From assembly GCA_013215285.1 (NCBI GenBank), contig JABSRD010000001.1:186001-250000 (forward strand): a DNA stretch of 64,000 bases. The letters run 5' to 3'. Both the position numbers and the translations under genes were made by a program. Positions 40,899 through 50,239 of this stretch are shown here, in pieces (within the stretch, counting starts at the first letter, position 1; each line of letters begins with the position of its first letter). The notes under the pieces were generated by a model that made no database searches, had not been told where the DNA came from, and saw only the letters and a list, made by a program, of their open reading frames with translations. Source of the DNA: Candidatus Nitrosopumilus sp. GTDB taxonomy: Archaea; Thermoproteota; Nitrososphaeria; Nitrososphaerales; Nitrosopumilaceae.

Positions 40899-41408
40899 AT
40901 GAGTAAGCCTGGAAATCTCTGGAGAAAGGTTCATGGAAAAATTATAAAAAAACCAACTAATTTCTCTTGGCTAATTGAAGAAAAATTAGCAGGTTCAGGA
41001 ATTCCCACAAGTTCTGATGAGTTTAATTGGATTGTGAATCAAGGAGTAAAATCAATTGTAACTATGACTGAAAATGCTTTGCCTGATGATTGGGTAAAAA
41101 CTATTAATTATTTGCATGTACCAACTCCTGATCTTACAGCACCTGATATGGATGAAATAGATTTAGCAGTAGAATTTATTCAAGAACAAATTACAAAGAA
41201 TCAGGCAGTAATGGTTCATTGTGCTGCTGGTATGGGGAGAGCTGGAACAATTCTTGCATGTTACTTTGTAAAATACAAAAAATTTTCAGCAGATAAAGCA
41301 ATTAAAAAAATTCGTGATGAAAGACCTGGTTCTATTCAATCAGAAATACAAGAACTAGCTATTGGTTTTTATGAAAAACATGTAAAAAATAGTTTAGACA
41401 AATTCTGA
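40899..41408 (+). CDS. Dual-specificity/tyrosine phosphatase
   Basis: MVHCAAGMGRAGTILACYFV (HCxxGxxR). Confidence 0.93.
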   Translation: MSKPGNLWRKVHGKIIKKPTNFSWLIEEKLAGSGIPTSSDEFNWIVNQGVKSIVTMTENALPDDWVKTINYLHVPTPDLTAPDMDEIDLAVEFIQEQITKNQAVMVHCAAGMGRAGTILACYFVKYKKFSADKAIKKIRDERPGSIQSEIQELAIGFYEKHVKNSLDKF

Positions 41409-41540
41409 AACTAGTTTATCATCAACAACTTTAATTTTCAAAGTTTTATTGTCTGAAAAGATTAAAGTTAATCCACCTTCTGAATCAGGATCTTCAACTT
41501 TTACTAGTTCTGCCATTCTAATTATATCATATTTTCCCAT
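41394..41540 (-). CDS. Small conserved protein, paralog A flanking the element
   Basis: MGKYDIIRMAELVKVEDPDSEGGLTLIFSDNKTLKIKVVDDKLVSEFV*; similar to the 50087-50239 product; converges with and overlaps the phosphatase 3' end. Confidence 0.7.
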   Translation of the reverse strand: MGKYDIIRMAELVKVEDPDSEGGLTLIFSDNKTLKIKVVDDKLVSEFV

Positions 41541-41552
41541 TTCATTTTCACC

Positions 41553-41563
41553 TATTCTGGAAT
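41553..41563 (+). repeat. Candidate attL (TATTCTGGAAT) inside the inverted repeat CCTATTC-TG-GAATAGG (41551-41566)
   Basis: Exact match to 50088-50098. Confidence 0.6.
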
Positions 41564-41632: not shown

Positions 41633-41749
41633 GGTACAAGCTCTAGGTACAAGCTATACTACCATTTATCACGGCTCTAGGTACAAGCTATACTACCATT
41701 TATCACGGCTCTAGGTACAAGCTATTTTTACGGTCTAGGTACAAGCTAT
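41633..41749 (+). repeat. Iteron cluster: (CTA)GGTACAAGCT(AT), five copies
   Basis: GGTACAAGCT at 41633; CTAGGTACAAGCTAT at 41643, 41677, 41711 and 41735. Two 34-bp periods also share ACTACCATTTATCACGGCT. Confidence 0.9.
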
Positions 41750-42228: not shown

Positions 42229-43326
42229 ATGGCGCTAGTCGATAAAGTCATTCCTCAAAACCGAACCCGAATTGGTGGGATTCTCACGGATCCTGCTAAT
42301 TACCTTGCTAAATCTCTTGAATTATTCAAAATTCATCAAACCCTCAAGGCTCAACATCTAGCAGACGAATTCGGATTATCAAGAGAGCATTGCCAAAGAA
42401 ATTTCATCAGACCATTACTAGATTCCAATCAAATTAAACCAGTTGCAGGATCCAAAGGCTTCTATCAACTCACAGAATCACAAATCGAAAAATCTGATAT
42501 GAAAAAAGAGTTGTATTCTGAATCAGAAATTTTCTCAACTGAATTATTTAAAAATTGGATGCGTAGGAACCGCTCAAAAGATGAATTAGACAAACAAACC
42601 CGATTTGCTAATATTTGTCTAGGTGTAGTAAATCCAAAATTCAAGATTCATCCTGATACGATTAACGCCAATAATTGGATGGGCATTGTATCGAATATTG
42701 TAGATGCAGTTTTAGAAGTAACAACTACAAAAATAGTAAATAAAGAACCTAATTGGTCTACTCGACAAGCAATCAGACATGCCGTAATCTATGGACTAGG
42801 AATTAAAATCTCAAAAGCAGAAGGTAAAGAATTAAGAATTTCAGGCGATAAACCAAAAGCCAAGAATTCAGATTTAGAAATTAGCAAAGAGCAAACTGTA
42901 CTATTCAAAAAGGAATCAAAAAAGCAATCTCTAAAGGATTTTTCAAAAGATGGTGTGAAATTATGGACTGGTTGCAGACCTTCATCTGTTTACATTATTA
43001 GAACTGATGATTTAATTTTCTATGATAGAACAGTTGAATTTGTAGAAGTAAAGGGTGAGCGATTCTTTAAAGATGGTGAAATAAAACTAGCCAAATTATT
43101 ATCCACTTCACTAAGCCCAGAAGTTCAAAAAAATATACAATTCAAATCATACACTCATAGAGCCTGCAAAATTCCAAAACTACACGAATACAAACAAGAT
43201 GAAGATTTTAAAAAATACATTTGGGATGAGGAATTCGTAATTGGACTAGAAAAATATTGGAAGCAAAGAAAATTTGAAAAGAAAATTAATTTGGTGTCCA
43301 GACTGTCACATGTATTTTGGAAATAA
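42229..43326 (+). CDS. wHTH protein resembling a truncated/divergent tyrosine recombinase
   Basis: N-terminal HTH (LADEFGLSREHCQRNFIRPLLDSNQI), SAM-like middle domain, then GVKLWTGCRPSSVYIIRTDDLIFYDRTVEFVEVKGE resembling the box I Arg region; no clear C-terminal HxxR...Y. Confidence 0.5.
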   Translation: MALVDKVIPQNRTRIGGILTDPANYLAKSLELFKIHQTLKAQHLADEFGLSREHCQRNFIRPLLDSNQIKPVAGSKGFYQLTESQIEKSDMKKELYSESEIFSTELFKNWMRRNRSKDELDKQTRFANICLGVVNPKFKIHPDTINANNWMGIVSNIVDAVLEVTTTKIVNKEPNWSTRQAIRHAVIYGLGIKISKAEGKELRISGDKPKAKNSDLEISKEQTVLFKKESKKQSLKDFSKDGVKLWTGCRPSSVYIIRTDDLIFYDRTVEFVEVKGERFFKDGEIKLAKLLSTSLSPEVQKNIQFKSYTHRACKIPKLHEYKQDEDFKKYIWDEEFVIGLEKYWKQRKFEKKINLVSRLSHVFWK

Positions 43327-43435
43327 AGAGGGCGTAAACAAACATTGTGTAAAGACTGGATGCAATAATTTTAAAACATATTCTGATGCAGAACTAATCA
43401 AAGCATACATTTCAATTCTAACTAACCCACTTTAA
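43274..43435 (+). CDS. C2H2-type zinc-finger ORF, overlapping the upstream ORF out of frame
   Basis: +1 frame: LKRKLIWCPDCHMYFGNKEGVNKHCVKTGCNNFKTYSDAELIKAYISILTNPL*; CPxC-x12-H-x-C. Possible TTG start at 43274 or frameshift product. Confidence 0.5.
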   Translation: MKRKLIWCPDCHMYFGNKEGVNKHCVKTGCNNFKTYSDAELIKAYISILTNPL

Positions 43436-43485: not shown

Positions 43486-43599
43486 ATGATAGGAATACTT
43501 ACGAAAGGACACATTGTCACATTTGTGATAGTTGTCGTAGCCGTAGTAGTTGCAGTTATGGTGGCAATACCACAAGTGCAAGCAATCAAGAAAAAATAG
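43486..43599 (+). CDS. Small single-TM protein
   Basis: MIGILTKGHIVTFVIVVVAVVVAVMVAIPQVQAIKKK*, immediately upstream of the MCP candidate. Confidence 0.65.
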   Translation: MIGILTKGHIVTFVIVVVAVVVAVMVAIPQVQAIKKK

Positions 43600-43608
43600 G
43601 TGAACTGA

Positions 43609-44583
43609 ATGGCAACACCGAACGAAAGAACTGAAACTGATTTAATTTTGAAGGACAATGAGCCTTTGAACATTAAAAAACTTGGTTTAGATGGTGCTTA
43701 TCGTTGGTTGAAGTTGACAGTTATTCTCAGCATGACAAACTTGGGCGTAGCCCCTGTTTTCAAAGAGGATGACATTTTGAACTATATCACAGCTGTTGGT
43801 ATAAGACGAAACGGAAAATTCTTCAAATTCAACCTACCTTTGAGATTTGCATACAAACTGCAAACCTCAGACGTTGGAACGCCAGCATTTTACCAAGCAC
43901 CAATCACAACAATTAATGAAACATATGATGCAATTGCAGAGTACACAATACACTTTGCAGAAGACATCTTAAACGAAAATGACATCAGTGCATTACTACA
44001 AACAAAGAATCTCACCAATTTGGAACTAGTAATTTCAACAGGTGATAAAGAGGATATTGCAAGTGTTAATGCACCTACAATCAATTCTGCTAAAGTGGAA
44101 ATTGAAATTAGGGACTTTACAGGTGAAGGAAGAAAAGGTGGAGACATCAACGATTCCAAATCTGAAAACATGACTGACATCACAGAAATTGTTGAAGAAA
44201 TTGACTTGCAAACTGGAAGAACCGACTATGTCAAAAAAGCACAAGAAATTGACATGGTATCAGGATCCAGTATTCTAGTGCATGCAGGACTTGTTTTAGA
44301 TAATGGCGTGGCATCAAATGACCGCGTTACAGGATTTAGAACTTGGAATGTTCCCCCTAGAACAAGTGACTTTGAGAGAAATTTCAAAGGTCTAGTTCGA
44401 GATACAAAAACCAATTATGCATTGGAAAATACCATAAATGGATTTTTCAAAATAAATTGGCAAGAAAAACTCGGTAGACTAGGATTTGTTACAGGTGTTA
44501 AATCAAAAGAGTTGATTCAACTACTAACTAACGGCATTGTCTCAAAAGAGGACACAATCTTACTCTACACCAAATCAGTGTAG
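43609..44583 (+). CDS. Putative double-jelly-roll major capsid protein
   Basis: 324 aa, beta-rich, two-lobed; YRWLKLTVILSMTNLGVAPVFKEDDILNYITAVGIRRNGKFFKFNLPLRFAYKL resembles the PM2 P2-like N-terminal jelly roll. Position and gene context are consistent. Confidence 0.6.
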   Translation: MATPNERTETDLILKDNEPLNIKKLGLDGAYRWLKLTVILSMTNLGVAPVFKEDDILNYITAVGIRRNGKFFKFNLPLRFAYKLQTSDVGTPAFYQAPITTINETYDAIAEYTIHFAEDILNENDISALLQTKNLTNLELVISTGDKEDIASVNAPTINSAKVEIEIRDFTGEGRKGGDINDSKSENMTDITEIVEEIDLQTGRTDYVKKAQEIDMVSGSSILVHAGLVLDNGVASNDRVTGFRTWNVPPRTSDFERNFKGLVRDTKTNYALENTINGFFKINWQEKLGRLGFVTGVKSKELIQLLTNGIVSKEDTILLYTKSV

Positions 44584-44626: not shown

Positions 44627-45583
44627 ATGGGAACACAAAATAATATGATAATAATTGGAGCAATAGGACTAGCCCTAGTTGTAGCACTATTTTTAATATT
44701 TAGAAATTTTGATTTATCAAAAATTGGTGAGGACTTGCAGAAAGGAGTTGACAAGTTTGTTGAAGATACTCAAAAAGGAATAGATTCCTTTGTTGAAGAT
44801 ACTCAAAAAGGATTTGATGAGTTTTTCAATGGAACAGAAGAACAACAACTATCAAAAGAGACTCAGGATATTTTCCAAAGACAAATCGAAGAGAAAGAAC
44901 AGCAGGCAAAAGATGCAGGCTTTGGTTCAGTGGAATCTTTTGAGAGGGCAACTGATACAAACAAGGATCCTACAAAGTTTAACCCTGATGGAATAATCGG
45001 TTATGGCTATCGGAATGTAAATGGTGGAAGGGGAATACCTGATACTCAAGAAAATAGAGATATTCTTGATGATTTGATTAGTGGCAAAGCAACTTTTAAC
45101 TCTGAATCATCTGGGGAAATTTCTAAAGATGCTGAAAATAACTTTGCACGACTAAAACCACGATTAAAAAACAGAACTACAACAGTAAGAGGAACTGCAA
45201 AGTCAAAACTTGATACAAATCAAACTTTCGAGGTATTTGGAACTAATGAAGGAAATAGAAAAGTTACTGGTGTAATTAGAGAAACCCCAAAGGATCCTAG
45301 AAAATTAAGAACCAACTCAAATAATCGACCAACTGAAACTGCTTCACAAAGAGCAAATAGAGTATTCATTGAGCAAGGTAAATTTGTAGATGAGGACAGG
45401 GGTCTAGGTGTAACAAGTGCAAAAGAGAAAACAAAATCTTTCAAATTTGGAACTAACACAGGAAGGGGTTTATCAATTCCAACAAAAGGATTAACCACTC
45501 GTCAAAGAATGCAACAAAGAAAAAAACTTGCAGAAGAAAAAGCAAAAAAAATATTTGATTCAGGGAGTATCAATAATCTTTAG
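44627..45583 (+). CDS. Membrane-anchored, basic, repeat-containing virion-like protein
   Basis: N-terminal TM (MIIIGAIGLALVVALFLIFRNF), KFVEDTQKGIDSFVEDTQKGFDEF repeats, Lys/Arg-rich C-terminus. Confidence 0.6.
   Translation: MGTQNNMIIIGAIGLALVVALFLIFRNFDLSKIGEDLQKGVDKFVEDTQKGIDSFVEDTQKGFDEFFNGTEEQQLSKETQDIFQRQIEEKEQQAKDAGFGSVESFERATDTNKDPTKFNPDGIIGYGYRNVNGGRGIPDTQENRDILDDLISGKATFNSESSGEISKDAENNFARLKPRLKNRTTTVRGTAKSKLDTNQTFEVFGTNEGNRKVTGVIRETPKDPRKLRTNSNNRPTETASQRANRVFIEQGKFVDEDRGLGVTSAKEKTKSFKFGTNTGRGLSIPTKGLTTRQRMQQRKKLAEEKAKKIFDSGSINNL
44756..44812 (+). repeat. 33-bp-period tandem repeat TTTGTTGAAGATACTCAAAAAGGA x2
   Basis: Exact 24-bp copies at 44756-44779 and 44789-44812. Confidence 0.9.
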
Positions 45584-46063
45584 GTGTTTATGATGGCAAT
45601 TCTTGAAGGTGCGGTACTATCAACATTCCTTAACGAATTAGTTAGACGATTCTCTAAAAAATTAGATGAAGTAAAGCCAAAGGATAGACAAATAGTAATT
45701 GTAAAACAGGATCCCAACTCCTTTTTTAAATCTGAACTTGTCAAAGTAAAAACTGACAAGAAAAAATGGACTACAAAAGATAAACCTATCTTACAATTTG
45801 AAAATATTTTAGAAAAAGAATCTATAGTAAAAGAAATTTCAATTATACCTGATAAAAATTTCAAGACTAAAGGGAAATTATTAATCACTGTTGATGATAG
45901 CGAAATATTTCAATCAAAAACATTTGATGCTTTTGAAGATGTTGCTGAACTTGTAATTCCAATTAATAAAACAATTCAACAAAATTCAAAAATAAGATTA
46001 TTCATGATTTCAAAAGATGATGCTGAAATAGGATTAACTGCATTTGTGACATTTGGTGAATAA
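45584..46063 (+). CDS. Virion-like protein with C-terminal domain shared with the 46818 product
   Basis: KGKLLITVDDSEIFQSKTFDAFEDVAELVIPINKTIQQNSKIRLFMISKDDAEIGLTAFVTF. Confidence 0.55.
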   Translation: MFMMAILEGAVLSTFLNELVRRFSKKLDEVKPKDRQIVIVKQDPNSFFKSELVKVKTDKKKWTTKDKPILQFENILEKESIVKEISIIPDKNFKTKGKLLITVDDSEIFQSKTFDAFEDVAELVIPINKTIQQNSKIRLFMISKDDAEIGLTAFVTFGE

Positions 46064-46821
46064 CCATAGCACCACTCATTAGTTCCTTAGATGGTGGCTC
46101 TTTAGGTCATTCTTTTACTGGACTGATAGCAGATACATTACCTGAATTACCTGAATTACCTGAATTACCTGAATTACCTGAAATATTAGGTTTAACACTA
46201 CATCTTGATAGTGCAGATGAATCTAGCATAACCAAAAACAACTCTAATGCTATATCTCAATGGCGTGACACATCAGGGAATGATAACAATGTAAATGATA
46301 ACAATGCAAATCAAAATAATGCAAACTATCAAGCATTACTAATTGAAAATAATCTAAATGGAAAATCAATAATTCGATATGATAGAGTTGATGATTATTT
46401 TCAATTAAATCAAAGAATCACAAACGTAAGAACTATCTTTATTGTATGCAAATTAACAGCGTACACTGACAAACTTAATTTTCTACTGGGTGATACAGAT
46501 TACTACGATTTTCATTCTGGCACTTACGGGGAAATGTTTTCATCATACACATATTCAAATATCAAAGATGGAATCGTACGCATAAATGGTGTTGTTGCAG
46601 CCACTACTGACAAGTTCCCTTTACAGTTTGCGATAATTACAATTAGAACTATAGGAAATGTATCATTTAACACAATCTCCAAAGATAGAAGAAATCAATT
46701 AAACAGGACATGGAACGGCGACCATGCAGAGATATTAGTTTATGATACCCCGTTAACTGATGAGCAAATAACACAGATGGAATCCTATCTTGGTGAAAAG
46801 TGGGGTATTGAAACAATTTGA
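46060..46821 (+). CDS. LamG/concanavalin-like protein with (LPE)5 linker; no canonical start codon
   Basis: Open frame extends 158 codons upstream of the track's ATG at 46534: IAPLISSLDGGSLGHSFTGLIADTLPELPELPELPELPEILGLTLHLDSADESSI...QWRDTSGNDNN...FLLGDTDYYDFHSG...ILVYDTPLTDEQITQMESYLGEKWGI. Confidence 0.7.
   Translation: MTIAPLISSLDGGSLGHSFTGLIADTLPELPELPELPELPEILGLTLHLDSADESSITKNNSNAISQWRDTSGNDNNVNDNNANQNNANYQALLIENNLNGKSIIRYDRVDDYFQLNQRITNVRTIFIVCKLTAYTDKLNFLLGDTDYYDFHSGTYGEMFSSYTYSNIKDGIVRINGVVAATTDKFPLQFAIITIRTIGNVSFNTISKDRRNQLNRTWNGDHAEILVYDTPLTDEQITQMESYLGEKWGIETI
46138..46182 (+). repeat. Perfect 9-bp tandem repeat TTACCTGAA x5
   Basis: Direct reading; encodes (LPE)5. Confidence 0.97.
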
Positions 46822-48365
46822 CTTTTCAAGAACAGTTTTTGGAATCTGCAAAATCTGATTCTAGAAAAAAATCAAAGACACAAATTAAAATTAAAAACCC
46901 TTTAGAAAAAGATATTTTTGTAAACGCTATTAGTTTGGTGGCAGATGTCTATTTTTCTCTAAAGGGAAGATGTGAAATAAAAATTAACAATAATGTTGAA
47001 TTCACGCCAAAAGATAACGCTTTCAAACTCAGAAAAGAGATACTAATTCCATTAGAGAATCAAATTTTAAAACAGAATGGTTCCATTGATATTTCGATTT
47101 GGAATCCTGTAGATGATGATGTGGTTGAACTTTCTGCTCTGGTAATAATTTCAGAACATTCAGGTAACGTAACTATCTCAGGTCAGGCAGTAGATGATAG
47201 TACCATGTTAAAGGGAATTTCAGGCGGTGCTGGAAATGAAGCAGATACTCATGATATTTTTCCATATCAAATTTATCGAGATGAAACTAAAGAATTTCTA
47301 ATCAACACAAAGGGTCGAGAAAATATGCTATTAACTATGGCATCTAGCAATGTATTAGCACCTAAAATCATAAATCATAATTTTACGCCTGAAACAAAGT
47401 CTAATCCATTTCAATTTAAGATTAATTCAAGTGTGGATAATACACCAGATAGTACAAGTGGCGTTAGCAGAATTTATGCCAGCGCTGGACCTGTTAGAAA
47501 TAGAAACTGGAGTACACAAACAGAAGCAGAATGGTATTACGTCACTGAATATCTTAACACTTTACGTGATGTAACTCTAAGTGATAACAAGATACTTGAT
47601 GATGCAACCTATGGTGAATTCGTTGATAAATATCTCTTAATTGATGGACAAGGAATTGCAGACAAGGAACTAAAATTCGATTTTGACTCTACTGGATTTA
47701 GTCAAGATGTAACTAGTGGAGTAATGGCAGTTACTCTAACAAAAATAATAAAATATCAAAGAACACAAACAGCAAAGTATGTTCCAGCCGCTGGCGGCAC
47801 ATTTTTCACTAGAAAAGTCGTTGTCACTCCTTGGACTGCATACACTCCAGTATCTACAAGTTATAGTTACAAATCTGCAACAGTAACGCTACGTTCTAAA
47901 ATAACATTTGAGATTGAAGTGAGTGATGATGTAAACTTTGCAATTTTCAGAAAAATTAAAGATGTAACAAGTAATGGCACATTAACTGTAACCTTTTCTG
48001 AAAAGTACATGAGGATTAAAAGAATTGTTACAGGTGAAAAATTAATAGTAAATTATGGTAGTTCTGGCGGTGTGTCTACTGCTGATTTGTCATACCCTGA
48101 TATTACAAGTGATTATTCAGTGTCTAATCTAATAGACTTGGAAAGTCATGGCGGTACTGCAAGTTTGTCATTTTTACTAAAGGGAGTAAATGATCAATGG
48201 TTTACACTGTTAAAATCATCTGAACTTGATGCAGTAACACAAGGGGAATCAAAATTAATCCGTCATGACATTGCAGGAATCCCGCCATCACAATCAAGAT
48301 TCAAGGCAGTCTTGCAAGTTACAGGTTCTCTAAAAACTGGTGTTACAATAGATTTGGTGGCATAA
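46818..48365 (+). CDS. Large spike/receptor-binding-like structural protein
   Basis: 515 aa beta-rich; TTG start overlaps the upstream TGA; N-terminal domain resembles the C-terminus of the 45584 product. Confidence 0.55.
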   Translation: MTFQEQFLESAKSDSRKKSKTQIKIKNPLEKDIFVNAISLVADVYFSLKGRCEIKINNNVEFTPKDNAFKLRKEILIPLENQILKQNGSIDISIWNPVDDDVVELSALVIISEHSGNVTISGQAVDDSTMLKGISGGAGNEADTHDIFPYQIYRDETKEFLINTKGRENMLLTMASSNVLAPKIINHNFTPETKSNPFQFKINSSVDNTPDSTSGVSRIYASAGPVRNRNWSTQTEAEWYYVTEYLNTLRDVTLSDNKILDDATYGEFVDKYLLIDGQGIADKELKFDFDSTGFSQDVTSGVMAVTLTKIIKYQRTQTAKYVPAAGGTFFTRKVVVTPWTAYTPVSTSYSYKSATVTLRSKITFEIEVSDDVNFAIFRKIKDVTSNGTLTVTFSEKYMRIKRIVTGEKLIVNYGSSGGVSTADLSYPDITSDYSVSNLIDLESHGGTASLSFLLKGVNDQWFTLLKSSELDAVTQGESKLIRHDIAGIPPSQSRFKAVLQVTGSLKTGVTIDLVA

Positions 48366-48596
48366 ATGGATATTGATTTTTTGCCTGATTGGATTTACAC
48401 GTTTTTGGTTTTACCTATTACAATATTATTTCAAAGATACTTTGTAATGTCCTCAAGGGTTACAGTATTGGAAAAAAAAGATTTAATCAATGATGAAAAA
48501 TTTGAGAAACTTTGTAACTCAGTTGATGAACTCACAAAGGAAGTTCATAAATTAGTTGGAACAATGAATGAGCATTTGCGTGTTTCAAGTTCCTAA
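48366..48596 (+). CDS. Small membrane/coiled-coil protein
   Basis: TM WIYTFLVLPITILFQRYFVM followed by coiled coil; holin-like topology. Confidence 0.55.
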   Translation: MDIDFLPDWIYTFLVLPITILFQRYFVMSSRVTVLEKKDLINDEKFEKLCNSVDELTKEVHKLVGTMNEHLRVSSS

Positions 48597-48622
48597 TATA
48601 CAAAATTTCAACTAGATAATTT

Positions 48623-48925
48623 ATGGAAAGCGAAGAATTCCAAAAACACATTTTAGCACGAGTTGAAAAACTTGAGAGAAATGAATCTGCACGAGAACAA
48701 GCAGAAAAAATTTCTAATGGTGAATCAGAAAATCACTTTAACGGTGAAAGGACTTTAGAGTCTGCAACCCAAAGAGTAAAGGCATTTTATCAAAACTACG
48801 ATGAGGGATCCGTTGGTTCTTTGTATGGTTCTGAGATTGATTCATACCATAAAGAGGCAAAAATCATTGAAATGCTGATTGAAAAATACTCTCTGCAACA
48901 ACTATCAAAGGACTTGAGAAAATAA
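48623..48925 (+). CDS. Hypothetical protein
   Basis: 100 aa ORF in the co-directional run. Confidence 0.5.
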   Translation: MESEEFQKHILARVEKLERNESAREQAEKISNGESENHFNGERTLESATQRVKAFYQNYDEGSVGSLYGSEIDSYHKEAKIIEMLIEKYSLQQLSKDLRK

Positions 48926-49140
48926 TGGAAGAGCAAGCAATTACAGCATTGATTGTTACTGTTTTACCAATGTTAGGCGGTCTATTAGTTGCTGTAAAAA
49001 AGTGGTTCAACATATCTGAGAAAATCAAATCAATTAGGATCCTAATGGATTCAGTAGATGATGCACTCAGAGATGATAAAATCACTGAGGGTGAGTTTAG
49101 AACTATCTTTGGAAATTACAAAGTGGTTGTGAACTCCTAG
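48925..49140 (+). CDS. Small membrane protein
   Basis: ITALIVTVLPMLGGLLVAVKKWF; start overlaps the upstream stop. Confidence 0.55.
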   Translation: MEEQAITALIVTVLPMLGGLLVAVKKWFNISEKIKSIRILMDSVDDALRDDKITEGEFRTIFGNYKVVVNS

Positions 49141-49274
49141 TGGCAAAAAGAAAACTTTCTGCTGGAATTCACTATGTAAGAGTGAAAAACTGCTCAGGCA
49201 AAATGTGTGAAAGAAAAGTCAAGGTTCTAAAGAATGGACAATGGCGATTCATGAAAAATACCAAGAAGAGATAA
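49140..49274 (+). CDS. 44-aa very basic protein (candidate nucleoprotein)
   Basis: Not in ORF track; GTG overlapping the upstream TAG: VAKRKLSAGIHYVRVKNCSGKMCERKVKVLKNGQWRFMKNTKKR*. Confidence 0.6.
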   Translation: MAKRKLSAGIHYVRVKNCSGKMCERKVKVLKNGQWRFMKNTKKR

Positions 49275-49419: not shown

Positions 49420-49764
49420 TTGATTATGTTTGGCATTCATATTAATGATGTTTACATTCCCGCAGACGTAGTTGTTGCAATCACAATACAAAGAAAACAA
49501 ATTAAAATAGTCATCAGATATCGGGCATTTGGTGAATTTGTAAATAATTTAGATAAAAAATTGCTTGACAAAACCACCATCACACATATCAAAATAGGGC
49601 AATTGGAGATAAATGGAGATTACATTTTTTCAAAACGCACAAAACGAGGAATTGGTAAAACACAAAAAATAACTACAACATTTCATTTAACTAGAGTTGG
49701 AGATGACATTAGCATAATTGAACCTCCCTTATTACGTAAAAAGAAAAAACCTCATACATATTAA
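49420..49764 (+). CDS. Hypothetical protein within the element
   Basis: 114 aa intact ORF. Confidence 0.5.
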   Translation: MIMFGIHINDVYIPADVVVAITIQRKQIKIVIRYRAFGEFVNNLDKKLLDKTTITHIKIGQLEINGDYIFSKRTKRGIGKTQKITTTFHLTRVGDDISIIEPPLLRKKKKPHTY

Positions 49765-50086: not shown

Positions 50087-50239
50087 TTATTCTGGAATTG
50101 ATACGGTCTCAATCTTTCCATCAACTGCTTTGATGAACAAAAATCTGTTATCTTTAATGATAAATGTAATTCCACCTTCTTTATCAGGTTCTTCTACTTC
50201 AAGTATTGGTTGTCCTAGTAAACCATCATATTTTGCCAT
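50087..50239 (-). CDS. Small conserved protein, paralog B flanking the element
   Basis: MAKYDGLLGQPILEVEEPDKEGGITFIIKDNRFLFIKAVDGKIETVSIPE*; same length and pattern as 41394-41540. Confidence 0.7.
   Translation of the reverse strand: MAKYDGLLGQPILEVEEPDKEGGITFIIKDNRFLFIKAVDGKIETVSIPE
50088..50098 (+). repeat. Candidate attR (TATTCTGGAAT), overlapping the 3' end of paralog B
   Basis: Exact match to 41553-41563. Confidence 0.6.

Follow-up and report, generated by a model that had tools for sequence, protein, structure and literature searches.

Proviruses of the STIV group are known from Nitrososphaera (Yutin et al. 2018, PMC5894146; Krupovic et al. 2019, PMC6563490). An ATPase is present in all STIV-group genomes, whereas the Odin group and FLiP, which also have double-jelly-roll (DJR) capsid proteins, are without one (Yutin et al., PMC5894146). 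The open-access journal literature searched makes no mention of DJR proviruses in Nitrosopumilus, and its thaumarchaeal reports come only from Nitrososphaera. The window analyzed here is a stretch of 64,000 nucleotides (bases 186001-250000 of contig C1) from a genome of the genus Nitrosopumilus that is 1.66 Mb long and 99% complete. One of its open reading frames very probably encodes the DJR major capsid protein (MCP) of an integrated tailless icosahedral virus of the STIV lineage, of which the copy in the window would be a deletion derivative.

The capsid gene (43609-44583, forward strand) begins with ATG and encodes 324 amino acids, as the initial annotation had it, and the two features described alongside it were also found in place: a polar linker, GEGRKGGDINDSKSENMTD, at approximately residues 172-190, and a single-transmembrane (TM) peptide of 37 amino acids, MIGILTKGHIVTFVIVVVAVVVAVMVAIPQVQAIKKK, encoded just upstream (43486-43599, forward strand). 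The GC contents of the three codon positions (0.44/0.35/0.31) are skewed as in coding DNA, and the longest open frame in simulated sequence with the composition of the element was no more than 163 codons in 200 trials. The assignment to the DJR capsid proteins is supported by homology and by genomic context. A profile built from the window protein and two of its relatives matched the STIV coat protein (PDB entries 3j31 and 2bbd) with an E-value of 3.4e-7 over positions 11-290; this was the only significant match in PDB, the next having an E-value of 0.24. A profile of five members again matched the STIV coat protein, as two colinear pieces, and the homology spans both jelly rolls at near full length. 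The window protein used as a single query against PDB gave no match, nor did the MCP profiles have a significant match to P2 of PM2 in the whole PDB sequence set. The protein was recognized by no family of Pfam or PHROGs, no relative was found among the INPHARED phage records, and scans of IMG/VR for the MCP, for its motif and for the ATPase also found none; three IMG/VR motif matches were rejected because their contigs carry unrelated genes, and of the eleven motif matches among genome contigs nine are bacterial.

Structure prediction, proposed in the initial annotation as the test of the fold, gave a divided answer. The AlphaFold models, built from alignments of three sequences, are weak overall (pLDDT 45-50), with a first barrel at a pLDDT of about 50-80 and a second half that is not resolved, so that a confident double jelly roll was not obtained; nor did the models show with confidence only one jelly roll or a fold of another kind. 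When compared with PDB by Foldseek, the low-confidence model of the window protein had its best matches to P3 of PRD1, STIV and PR772, and the model of a homologue (G239, below) matched STIV first, with an E-value of 7.8e-7 and a probability of 1.00. Capsid proteins, those of Wip1, STIV and GC1, are among the best matches in predicted viral structures, as is the 62-kDa protein of vaccinia virus. In the DJR reading the second barrel, too, would be a jelly roll.

Homologues of the MCP were identified by whole-genome search in two genomes of the same genus, G143 (two copies) and G425, and in two genomes of the Nitrososphaeraceae, G239 (Nitrososphaeraceae archaeon Centralia_MAG_167) and G254 (2.95 Mb, one contig). 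The window protein has 28% identity over 287 amino acids to the homologue in G239 (E-value 7e-28), 26% to that in G143 (2e-12) and 23% to that in G254 (1e-7). Within the Nitrosopumilaceae the gene is present in three of 250 genomes. A P-loop ATPase of the FtsK/HerA type, the profile of which matches HerA proteins, and a zinc finger precede the MCP in all four related elements. The order in the relatives is ATPase, zinc finger, in some cases a TM protein, and MCP, and the PM2-like gene order proposed in the initial annotation is not supported: the ATPase is absent from the element in the window. In G143 the place of the 37-aa TM peptide is occupied by a TM protein of 107 aa. The same ATPase neighborhood and the match to the STIV coat protein, together with the location of the gene inside an integrated element and its absence from nearly all relatives, argue against the explanation that the protein is a cellular or other secreted beta-sandwich protein and not a capsid protein, an explanation with which the weak models and the lack of a Pfam or PHROG family agree but which is scarcely credible.

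The element that contains the capsid gene comprises 8,535 bp between direct repeats of 11 bp, TATTCTGGAAT, which occur only twice in the window (41553-41563 and 50088-50098), the right copy being at the 3' end of a host gene of 50 aa. In a close relative with an empty site, TATTCTGGAAT is present once, where the 50-aa gene ends; in eight relatives with empty sites the genes of a phosphatase and of proteins of 48, 50 and 178 aa are contiguous. In the genome of the window, 8.5 kb separates the 48-aa gene from the 50-aa gene, as expected of site-specific integration with direct repeats. The 48-aa (41394-41540) and 50-aa (50087-50239) host genes are paralogues, neighbors in the relatives and split here by the element, which abuts the 50-aa gene at its 3' end and has replaced the stop codon of that gene. 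A repeat of 81 nt (41420/50119) was rejected as a pair of long att sites, since it corresponds to these paralogues. Four direct copies of CTAGGTACAAGCTAT lie downstream of the left att repeat and ahead of the integrase remnant (41643-41749, forward strand), against 0.05 copies expected in the window; the genome has no further occurrence of the 13-bp core, and CTAGGTACAAGCTAT was not found in the related elements. These copies are possible binding sites of a recombinase or a replication protein.

From the MCP rightwards, the genes of the element all lie on the forward strand, and homologues of most of them, with the order conserved, are present in G143 and/or G425. The first (44627-45583) encodes a protein of 318 aa with an N-terminal TM segment and a C-terminus that matches a 283-aa protein of G425 (E-value 3e-5), which is probably a membrane-associated virion protein. 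It is followed by a beta-rich protein of 159 aa (45584-46063) that has homologues at the same place in G143 and G425 and is a candidate minor capsid or penton protein. The next frame (46063-46821) is LamG/ConA-like, matching a 263-aa protein of G143 (E-value 9e-5) and, weakly, a virion protein of PHROGs and Laminin_G_3, and its product is probably a surface protein. This frame has approximately 252 open codons and its first ATG, GTG or TTG at 46534; either an unusual start is coupled to the upstream gene or the start codon has been lost. A beta-rich protein of 515 aa (46818-48365), with 32% identity to a 390-aa protein of G143, is a candidate vertex or spike protein. One beta-rich domain is common to the 159-aa protein (45584-46063) and the 515-aa protein, in the latter at the N-terminus (46818-47180), and the two are paralogous in this part; the domain is duplicated in G143 and G425 as well and is a candidate vertex/penton domain. 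Four small proteins of 76, 100, 71 and 44 aa follow (48366-49274), of which the first two have homologues, likewise in conserved order, in the relatives, and the last ORF of the element (114 aa, 49420-49764) has no homologue among the related elements.

To the left of the MCP the element differs from its relatives. An ORF of 365 aa (42229-43326, forward strand) matches a profile of the G239 and G254 integrases with 39.9 bits, a weak similarity that is colinear with positions 78-380 of 512, and represents the N-terminal and middle parts of a divergent tyrosine integrase from which the catalytic C-terminus is missing. A complete integrase is common but not universal in (pro)viruses of the STIV group. 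The 3' end of this ORF overlaps, in another frame, the gene of a 53-aa zinc-finger protein (43274-43435, forward strand, TTG start) that has 48% identity to a zinc finger of G254 (E-value 1e-5) and whose homologues lie between the ATPase and the MCP in the relatives. No ATPase is present in the list of ORFs between 41553 and 50098. The intact relative in G143 is 14,067 bp long, a difference of approximately 5.5 kb from the 8,535 bp in the window, and the distance in G143 from the matching position of the integrase to the zinc finger is also approximately 5.5 kb. The truncated integrase, the overlap with the zinc-finger gene and the agreement of the size difference with this distance make a single deletion the best reading.

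The alternative that the element is a complete small DJR virus, naturally lacking an ATPase and packaging its DNA without one like the Odin group or FLiP, gains from its size of 8.5 kb, which falls within the 7-11 kb of the ATPase-less Odin-group genomes (PMC5894146), and from structural reading frames that are open. It is unlikely nonetheless, given an integrase ORF that breaks off ahead of the catalytic part and overlaps the zinc-finger gene in a different frame, an ATPase in every one of the closest relatives and a size difference that one deletion would explain. The Odin group, here compared by description only, is marked by a group-specific small protein before the MCP, ParB/PD-(D/E)XK nucleases and the natural lack of an ATPase; no such nucleases are among the Pfam hits in the window. 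A deletion is the better fit to the missing ATPase than a natural absence of the Odin type.

By the deletion model, an archaeal virus of the STIV lineage, icosahedral and tailless, would have integrated site-specifically into the Nitrosopumilus chromosome. Judging from its family, the intact virus would have a shell in which MCP trimers form pseudo-hexagonal capsomers, probably an internal membrane beneath the shell, and an FtsK/HerA-type ATPase that pumps DNA in; this virion architecture is attributed to the window virus by analogy. Recombination would then have fused the integrase gene, at its middle, to the zinc-finger gene, at its start, with the loss of approximately 5.5 kb that included the catalytic end of the integrase, regulatory genes and the packaging ATPase. 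Having lost the integrase end and the ATPase, the element should on its own be capable of neither excision nor DNA packaging, and is probably an inactive, dead remnant.

The genome has a single convincing A32-like ATPase, located in a second element of 17.4 kb (C1:14049-31425), approximately 200 kb from the window element; a further, weak match (contig C19, E-value 2e-4) covers only part of the profile in a frame of 621 aa, which is probably a larger HerA-type ATPase. The insertion site of the second element is the 3' end of a tRNA gene, whose anticodon loop was read by eye as TCT (Arg), and 13-bp repeats, CCCTTTGGGCCCG, flank the element. Its genes include an integrase-like ORF, large ORFs of secreted type (1164 and 664 aa), a Rep-like ORF of 518 aa and an ATPase module in the order zinc finger, 237 aa, 109 aa, 135 aa, ATPase, zinc finger; it carries genes that precede the ATPase in G143, and a capsid gene was looked for in it and not found. 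That a single provirus was split into these two elements was considered and rejected, since both are equipped with an integrase, a zinc finger and an att site of their own. Another explanation is a helper-satellite or two-part system in which the window element supplies the capsid and the 17.4-kb element supplies the packaging ATPase and mobility genes; in a marine archaeon, such a system, if real, would amount to a helper-satellite pair or a DJR virus in two parts. The one MCP and the one convincing A32-like ATPase of the genome do stand in different elements, but only a single genome shows this arrangement, the possession by each element of its own integrase and att site speaks against mutual dependence, and the Walker A motif of the ATPase is GMQGSGKIT, with Ile where Ser or Thr is expected (GKI, not GK[ST]), which suggests that the enzyme is inactive. 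A two-part system is accordingly rated as very improbable, and the deletion derivative remains the preferred reading of the window element.

In two other Nitrosopumilus genomes the proviruses contain both the ATPase and the integrase and are candidates for induction. The provirus in G143, a complete Nitrosopumilus genome, is present as two copies of 14,067 bp at unrelated sites (C1:81729-95795 and 1856133-1870199 in the coordinates of that genome), each with TTTTAAAA at each end; the copies are 99.99% identical, with two mismatches, and such near identity at different sites implies recent movement. The finding in Nitrosopumilus extends the tailless icosahedral STIV-like viruses to marine ammonia oxidizers.

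Among the known systems, the PM2 and Odin groups (PMC5894146) have a DJR MCP as the window element does, and the Odin group shares with it the lack of an ATPase, whereas the capsid protein of PM2 is not matched in PDB by the profile of the window MCP. The coat protein of STIV (Turriviridae) resembles most of the window protein at the profile level and is the best solved fold for the G239 homologue, but is so distant that a search with a single sequence misses it, and no turret proteins like those of STIV were recognized in the window element. The proviruses NitGar-E1/E2 and NitEve-E7 (PMC6563490) reside in Nitrososphaera and have a packaging ATPase and an integrase, whereas the window element resides in Nitrosopumilus, has no ATPase and has a truncated integrase; all of them are integrated in a thaumarchaeon and combine a STIV-like DJR MCP with an integrase of the tyrosine type.
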